From assembly GCF_003575965.1 (NCBI RefSeq), contig NZ_QWJJ01000013.1, positions 88,359 through 152,358 of the forward strand: a stretch of 64,000 nt of DNA, in the 5' to 3' direction. How positions within the stretch are numbered: the first letter of the stretch is position 1; every line of letters starts with the position of its first letter. Origin of the DNA: Pseudooceanicola sediminis. Lineage in GTDB: Bacteria > Pseudomonadota > Alphaproteobacteria > Rhodobacterales > Rhodobacteraceae. Below are positions 4,129 to 57,480 of the stretch, piece after piece. A model generated the notes under the pieces. It was not told the origin of the DNA. It saw only the letters and a program-made list of their open reading frames with translations, and did not search any database. Both the position numbers and the translations under genes were made by a program.

Positions 4129-4172
4129 CGCACCGTTCACATACAGCCAAGATACCGTCAGGATACCGACGT
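4129..4172 (-). repeat. 11-bp direct-repeat array, copy A (4 units)
   Basis: On the minus strand four 11-bp units run head to tail: ACGTCGGTATC, CTGACGGTATC, TTGGCTGTATG, TGAACGGTGCG. The same four-unit layout, with the first unit starting ACGTCGGTAT, recurs at 47442-47485 and 57437-57480. This copy lies 75 bp upstream of the DUF2937 start codon, a position suited to transcription control. The 11-bp period puts units on one face of the helix, as in arrays bound by OmpR/PhoB-type regulators; that comparison is inference. Confidence 0.7.
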
Positions 4173-4289
4173 CGCAATCCGGCCATTTCAATCACTTAGG
4201 CGCAAAAGACCGCAATTTGCCGACGGGCTCGCTCATCTGGCCGGAAATACCCCCGCCGGAGGCACCCGCAGGTGCGACCGGCCCACCGC

Positions 4290-38007: not shown

Positions 38008-38023
38008 CCAAGTTGTACACGCC

Positions 38024-38067
38024 GCCCCAACGGCTTCCTGACGGGGCAGGTAAGACATATCGGAGCA
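38024..38067 (+). promoter_or_regulatory. SAM/SAH riboswitch in the metK leader
   Basis: The 44 bases before metK show the conserved features of the SAM/SAH class as I know it. P1 is formed by GCCCC (38024-38028) with GGGGC (38043-38047), enclosing the conserved AACGGCTTCCTGAC core. After a short linker, CGGAGCA (38061-38067) provides the pseudoknot partner and includes the Shine-Dalgarno sequence of metK, whose ATG is seven bases on. Ligand binding is expected to hide GGAG and lower MetK translation. The class has been found mainly in Rhodobacterales in front of metK. Confidence 0.9.
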
Positions 38068-47441: not shown

Positions 47442-47485
47442 AAAACCGCTCGGAAACCGTACAGATACCGACACGATACCGACGT
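47442..47485 (-). repeat. 11-bp direct-repeat array, copy B (4 units)
   Basis: On the minus strand: ACGTCGGTATC, GTGTCGGTATC, TGTACGGTTTC, CGAGCGGTTTT. The first three units match copies A and C well; the last is degraded. It lies 84 bp before the pobA start, in the gap that must contain the promoter of the pob-pca operon. Beside it the plus strand reads TCGGATTCCGCC, similar to the flank of copy A (GCAATCCGGCC). Confidence 0.7.
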
Positions 47486-47515
47486 TCGGATTCCGCCCCT
47501 GCATCTCGATTTTAA

Positions 47516-57237: not shown

Positions 57238-57436
57238 GAGACCCCGAAACCCCTTGATGCCCTGTGTACCACCGGGGTGTAATCCCAGTTCCCCGGGCTG
57301 GCTAGGCCACGATCGCCGGACCGGGCGCAAGGCCGCCTGCCACCCGGTGCAAGGCCGCGATCCACGTGCCCTGTGTGCAGATCGGCACCGCCGACGCGGC
57401 GCCCCTGCTGCAAGCCTTTGAAAACGCACAAATCCC

Positions 57437-57480
57437 ACGTCGGTATTTGAACGGTATCTGTACGGTATCTGAACGGTGCC
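57437..57480 (+). repeat. 11-bp direct-repeat array, copy C (4 units)
   Basis: On the plus strand: ACGTCGGTATT, TGAACGGTATC, TGTACGGTATC, TGAACGGTGCC. This is the most regular of the three arrays and defines the consensus. It lies 200 bp upstream of the FUSC start and 265 bp upstream of the BrnA-like gene on the other side, so the controlled gene is uncertain. Confidence 0.75.

Follow-up and report, generated by a model that had tools for sequence, protein, structure and literature searches.

Three intergenic sites in the window, the whole 64,000-nucleotide stretch of Pseudooceanicola sediminis DNA analysed here, carry a 44-bp array of four 11-bp direct repeats, and they raise the question of what such an array does at sites that are not linked to one another. 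An earlier note, made from the letters of the window, offered two answers: a shared operator of an unrecognised regulon, or a dispersed structured element.

Three arrays and their genome-wide set

Array A (4129..4172, minus strand) lies between proS and a DUF2937 gene, in the same orientation as both. Array B (47442..47485, minus strand) occupies the gap between a PLP-enzyme gene and pobA (TIGR02360), and array C (57437..57480, plus strand) the gap between the FUSC and BrnA genes. The coordinates, strands, 44-bp length, four-unit structure and gene neighbours given in the earlier note are all correct. Its inner-unit consensus, TGNACGGTATC, describes C only, the inner units of A being CTGACGGTATC and TTGGCTGTATG and those of B GTGTCGGTATC and TGTACGGTTTC; B does stand 84 bp before pobA, as described, but is oriented away from that gene. 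Segments with phased A/T patches lie upstream of A (4173..4199, minus strand) and of C (57410..57436, plus strand), while the corresponding segment of B (47486..47512, minus strand) is placed by analogy with the average of the set and not from B's own letters. A matrix built from the arrays' own 12 units scores C at 51.6, B at 45.4 and A at 43.0; elsewhere in the window, no unrelated place exceeds 10.1. When the matrix is built from 80 P. sediminis arrays, these three included, C is the top match (69.4), followed by A (59.1) and by B as the poorest (55.8), compared with -5.5 for the best of 60 first-order Markov windows.

If the structured element of the earlier note is read as RNA, the proposal lacks support: a scan of the window with Rfam finds no family up to gathering score at the arrays, and folding both strands of all three (six folds) gives z-scores of -0.95 to 1.43 and no unusual hairpin. 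Elsewhere, the window contains a SAM/SAH riboswitch at 38019-38067 on the plus strand (RF01727, 54.4 bits).

The arrays are real, shared, dispersed and built on an 11-bp pitch, as first described, but they are not restricted to three sites. Across the 4.44-Mb genome of P. sediminis, the pattern of the first two units has 223 matches with up to three mismatches, compared with 8 for its reversed control. Since 67 such matches collapse into 53 clusters in the 40 stretches that were fetched from this genome, the 223 matches scale to a total of about 180 sites.

These sites have a common architecture, in which A/T patches near positions -25, -15 and -6 are followed by the 11-bp units (30 and 80-81 copies). 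The A/T peaks near -15 and -6 are present in all four sets of arrays, whereas the one near -25 stands out in the three sets that share the unit sequence of the window (dialect 1) and weak in a set with another unit sequence (dialect 2). The first unit is ACGTCGGTAT, as set by the choice of pattern, and the last often contains CGGTGC. Arrays of Pseudooceanicola spongiae have an extra A/T patch at +44 to +48. Counting units whose core has at most one mismatch, 60 of 81 P. sediminis arrays and 42 of 53 P. spongiae arrays have four, the rest having two, three or five; four is also the number in 10 of 12 arrays of genome G186, while 14 of 15 arrays of genome G108 have five and the 15 loci of genome G001 are mixed. 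In some P. sediminis copies, a first unit lies 12 bp away. Copies that are near-identical within this genome lose their identity soon beyond the array.

Further sequence features recur around individual arrays. The word GTTAAC, or a near form of it, flanks some of them at a distance of about 24 bp upstream and about 21 bp downstream (L034, L036, L048, L053, L058, L059 and several of 112 loci from the family), and a GANTC word occurs further upstream in some of these GTTAAC-flanked arrays; the two words may point to a link with CtrA and CcrM. Tandem duplications of the element are also seen, with three arrays 80 bp apart at L124 and two arrays 92 bp apart at L049.

Dialect 1 is dispensable, as judged from its distribution. 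Within the genus (23 genomes, the source included; up to two mismatches, register overlaps counted), five genomes have 41-206 matches each and 18 have 0-6, and among 18 genomes outside the genus one has a single match. A sample of 295 genomes of the family, almost every one from a separate genus, includes 15 with 10 or more matches and no more than 2 for the control; the remaining 280 have fewer than 10. Hosts among the matches listed are P. spongiae, P. atlanticus, Roseovarius, Shimia, Sulfitobacter, Boseongicola, Sedimentitalea, Silicimonas and Salinihabitans; these names come from 80 of the 112 family loci, so that at least these genera bear arrays. A single 44-base dialect-1 consensus, used as the query, finds one partial match (25 bases, Azospirillum) in 72,556 plasmid records, a collection that may not include the plasmids of array-bearing strains, and no match in 50,697 phage records. 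Three viral contigs (L338, L339, L340) carry a three-unit pattern that may belong to host flanks. In G002, a genome with one match, a de novo search of 400 kb for period-11 repeats shows no clear excess over other periods, with 12 intergenic places for period 11 vs 6-10 for periods 8, 10, 13 and 14 (lower threshold, masked runs included).

Placement among genes and between genomes

Four sets of arrays provide 271 sites, with orthologous sites of P. sediminis and P. spongiae both included. Nine of these lie within genes called by a home-made gene caller, on which the genome-wide analyses of placement, neighbours, distances and skew context depend wherever they use genes; these nine and 38 sites at an edge were set aside, leaving 224 classified sites. 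Divergent gaps hold 21 of the 224 arrays vs 148 of 437 background gaps (Fisher p = 7e-13, the sites not all being independent), and convergent gaps are enriched (57/224 vs 51/437). This avoidance of promoters tells against the first reading offered in the earlier note, an operator of a regulon under an OmpR/PhoB-type regulator, and is the kind of placement that the note itself had named as counting against it. Such an operator would account for the 11-bp pitch and the direct repeats, and arrays do keep their position before the DUF2937 gene and in the FUSC/BrnA gap in the sister species; nevertheless, the scarcity of arrays in divergent gaps, the orientation of B and the total of about 180 sites leave an operator very unlikely.

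The enrichment of convergent gaps suits the main rival reading, a transcription roadblock or terminator, in which a protein bound to the array halts RNA polymerase at gene ends, chiefly when it arrives from a gene that lies downstream of the array with its 3' end toward it. The gene on that right-hand side is antisense to the array at 152 of 224 sites vs 192 of 437 in the background, and in P. spongiae the median distance to such a gene is 55 and 45 bp in two gap classes. Hairpins resembling intrinsic terminators also stand next to some arrays (L040, L060). In P. sediminis, however, the corresponding medians are 225 and 148 bp, and about 180 sites would probably be too few to serve all the gene ends of a genome. 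A roadblock alone also does not predict the link to GC skew described below, and we regard it as unlikely, if worth keeping in view.

Comparison with P. spongiae separates the position of the arrays from their sequence. Flanking blocks of the two genomes are mostly 75-91% identical, and where the flanks of a P. sediminis array are collinear, the P. spongiae genome has an array in the same place and on the same strand in 27 of 29 cases. Conservation of position in a sister species, as raised in the earlier note, thus holds for these 27 and fails for array B, which has no counterpart at the orthologous place in P. spongiae, and for one other. The proS-DUF2937 place of P. spongiae carries an array oriented as A, and the place orthologous to C carries one in the same orientation as C (L180:3050-3093). 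Genome G015, array-rich elsewhere, has none in its proS-DUF2937 gap.

Within the conserved sites, the units have changed unequally. The core of unit 3, which lies outside the search pattern, is 96-100% identical between the two genomes; units 1 and 2 have equally conserved cores, but these are fixed in P. sediminis by the pattern, and the core of unit 4 is 78-89% identical. By contrast, 24 of 27 P. sediminis copies have A or G as base 4 of unit 2, where all 27 P. spongiae copies have T. The free positions of the units have therefore shifted in concert at many sites between the two genomes.

A second dialect is seen in G108 and G186, genomes of two genera in the family survey in which the reversed control itself gave 82 and 73 matches. 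Their dialect-2 arrays, sampled as 27 distinct arrays (loci L354-L383), have a similar architecture, with A/T patches ahead of the units near -15 and -6, and a different unit, GCGTATGGCTG. Five dialect-2 loci coincide with dialect-1 sites of other genera in both neighbour genes and in strand (L374 with L305; L363 with L267; L376 with L284; L379 with L326 and L197; L382 with L246 and L114). Proteins encoded next to arrays match other array-adjacent proteins 26 times in a database of 440, in which some P. spongiae loci are present twice, and match other proteins 29 times in a database of 1334; side and strand agree in 21 of the 26 adjacent pairs and disagree in 5. A slight excess of the reversed control in G176, G157 and G115 (13, 9 and 8 matches) perhaps reflects sparse dialect 2.

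Fixed sites with changing unit words favour a reader that acts in trans and disfavour inert insertions. They bear directly on the idea that the arrays are an old mobile or REP-like element, now inert, whose orientation of insertion was set by replication. A dispersed element that is patchy across species and placed as REP elements are would be consistent with such an origin, as would the GTTAAC words on both sides of some copies and the tandem duplications 80-92 bp apart. Yet 27 of 29 arrays stand at orthologous places with the core kept and other positions changed in concert, and the same gaps of other genera can hold another unit sequence. Together with the ordinary folding of the three arrays and the divergence of near-identical copies soon outside the array, this makes a relic of insertion rather improbable.

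Array strand, GC skew and chromosome direction

The strand of an array follows the sign of the local GC skew, the array lying on the G-rich strand. Measured on the two sides separately, 72 and 68 of 81 arrays agree in P. sediminis, 46 and 44 of 47 in P. spongiae, and 85 of 99 and 83 of 97 in the 112 family loci, P. spongiae included. Dialect-2 arrays behave in the same way (15 and 14 of 15; 8 and 11 of 12). Over 500 contiguous kb of P. spongiae (G016:C1:2455000-2954999), 16 of 18 arrays agree with the skew of their own 5-kb bin. The skew of this region flips sign in blocks of tens of kilobases, unlike a simple two-replichore pattern, and the flips are seen at the third codon positions of genes on either strand. 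In G002, skew over 400 kb is weak, with no such blocks.

Chromosome-wide direction varies among genomes. In Shimia SK013, where positions were merged by hand from all 100 matches, the arrays predicted a terminus at 231-414 kb of one contig before a dif-like site was located there at 343.9 kb, and 18 of the 20 merged matches on this contig point at it. Two other Shimia contigs are nearly one-stranded (9/10 and 5/5) and several are mixed; the array strand switches at a distance of 14-30 kb from parS. In P. spongiae, both the skew and the closest arrays diverge at the position of parS (3.217 Mb); their convergence falls at 0.92-1.0 Mb, where the best dif-like match is a weak one with three mismatches at 0.938 Mb. 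Close to the origin, skew and array are both inverted over a 25-kb block, and 48 of 77 arrays among the matches listed fit a single origin-to-terminus direction. Genome G041 has no dif-like match in our search, and its parS, at 1.058 Mb, lies outside the origin span of 0.61-0.80 Mb predicted from the matches listed. In genome G309, with 65 positions merged by hand from the best 100 of 108 matches, strand order is random (32 switches among 64 neighbours, against a mean of 32.2 after shuffling), while 16 of 18 flank values of nine sampled arrays, and three of four arrays in an 80-kb stretch, agree with local skew. The random order of G309 and the 48 of 77 arrays of P. spongiae indicate that array direction tracks local skew much better than the present direction of replication.

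Arrays that point toward a dif-like site recall KOPS, and in Shimia SK013 their direction would fit a reading by the gamma domain of FtsK. FtsK-gamma was found in 22 of 22 genomes and is near-identical in the 21 compared (9 array-poor, 10 dialect-1 and 2 dialect-2; G282 is not among them). A domain that stays near-identical with and without arrays, and across both dialects, is not a co-evolving reader; FtsK-gamma is disfavoured in that role, and a KOPS identity for the arrays is most improbable.

The simplest account of the direction pattern is inversions that moved arrays and skew together. Orientation changes every 9-22 kb in the few P. spongiae blocks that can be mapped to G002, and two skew flips coincide with breakpoints, while two other breakpoints have no flip. 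A bolder reading, with a logic like that of CTCF, treats the arrays as directional sites that block or load a machine moving along the DNA, and has this machine impose the local strand asymmetry, in which case the unit dialects would record co-evolution with the machine's DNA reader. Skew that flips in blocks, with a sign that follows the arrays, would be in keeping with such a machine, and so would a rise at the array itself: in P. spongiae, skew over 5 kb is 0.084 downstream of the array vs 0.043 upstream (n = 29; higher downstream in 22) and remains elevated over some 12 kb on the downstream side. The asymmetry is not significant in P. sediminis (n = 45, p = 0.24) or in the 112-locus set (n = 59, p = 0.84), and inversions explain the pattern more simply, so that we hold an asymmetry-imposing machine to be quite improbable.

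A polar chromosomal site and its likeness to known systems

The arrays are a real, widespread polar chromosomal site. Their observed number, architecture, placement and skew polarity, their conserved position in one relative, the concerted change of units and the second dialect in some shared gaps fit a site that co-evolves with a putative protein reader; from these sequence patterns we infer both the reader and its head-to-tail assembly. Each array may be a binding site with a direction, spanning about 75 bp and made up of about three weakly specified helical turns (the phased A/T patches), followed usually by four specific 11-bp units of one turn each. The natural reader of 11-bp direct repeats would be a protein that assembles head-to-tail along one face of the DNA, and a sequence-specific protein probably binds in this manner, with one subunit per unit; head-to-tail binding would give the site its direction. 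With some tens to about 200 intergenic sites per chromosome, off promoters and on the local leading (G-rich) strand, the arrays could signal the direction of travel to a DNA motor, to a complex that forms loops or to a polymerase passing by. From where they lie and which way they face, we put the chances at about even that the arrays serve chromosome architecture or polarity rather than acting as operators of single genes. Counting against such a role are the poor fit to the present direction of replication in G309 and P. spongiae, the dif and parS results of G041, the dispensability of dialect 1, the empty proS-DUF2937 gap of G015, unit numbers that stray from four and an FtsK-gamma that does not vary with the arrays.

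A search of the open-access literature, with most subscription papers outside its scope, found no description of these arrays. It is unusual for a long, composite, directional site to change its recognition sequence at many places together while keeping those places, and for some of these gene gaps to hold another unit in other genera. The arrays therefore offer a natural experiment for finding a chromosome-organising protein, the gene for which would be expected where arrays occur and altered where the dialect has changed. The same experiment could address the source of strand asymmetry in bacteria whose gene order is shuffled.

Several known systems share part of this pattern. REP and BIME elements are extragenic, lie at 3' ends, have species-specific sequences and form hairpins from an inverted repeat. 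The arrays are likewise extragenic, at 3' ends, promoter-avoiding and species-specific in sequence, but lack a palindrome, are polar with respect to GC skew and mostly keep orthologous positions between two species. Boxes of the PhoB/OmpR type are direct repeats of 10-11 bp that are read head-to-tail; the arrays have such repeats in common with them and differ in avoiding promoters and in their number of about 180 sites. The DNA uptake sequence of Neisseria has switched dialect genome-wide, as the arrays have, although uptake sequences are numerous short single words and the arrays are composite and number tens to hundreds. Architecture imparting sequences (AIMS) are chromosomal motifs with a strand bias. 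The arrays share this bias but differ as composite sites of 44-75 bp, AIMS being defined as 8-bp sequences (PMC5993296). KOPS and SRS, read by FtsK or SpoIIIE, resemble the arrays in being dispersed and polar and, in at least one genome, in the direction toward dif. KOPS are 8-bp sequences (PMC2680272), whereas the arrays usually comprise four 11-bp units with an upstream segment, are mostly intergenic, and exist in dialects despite a constant FtsK-gamma.
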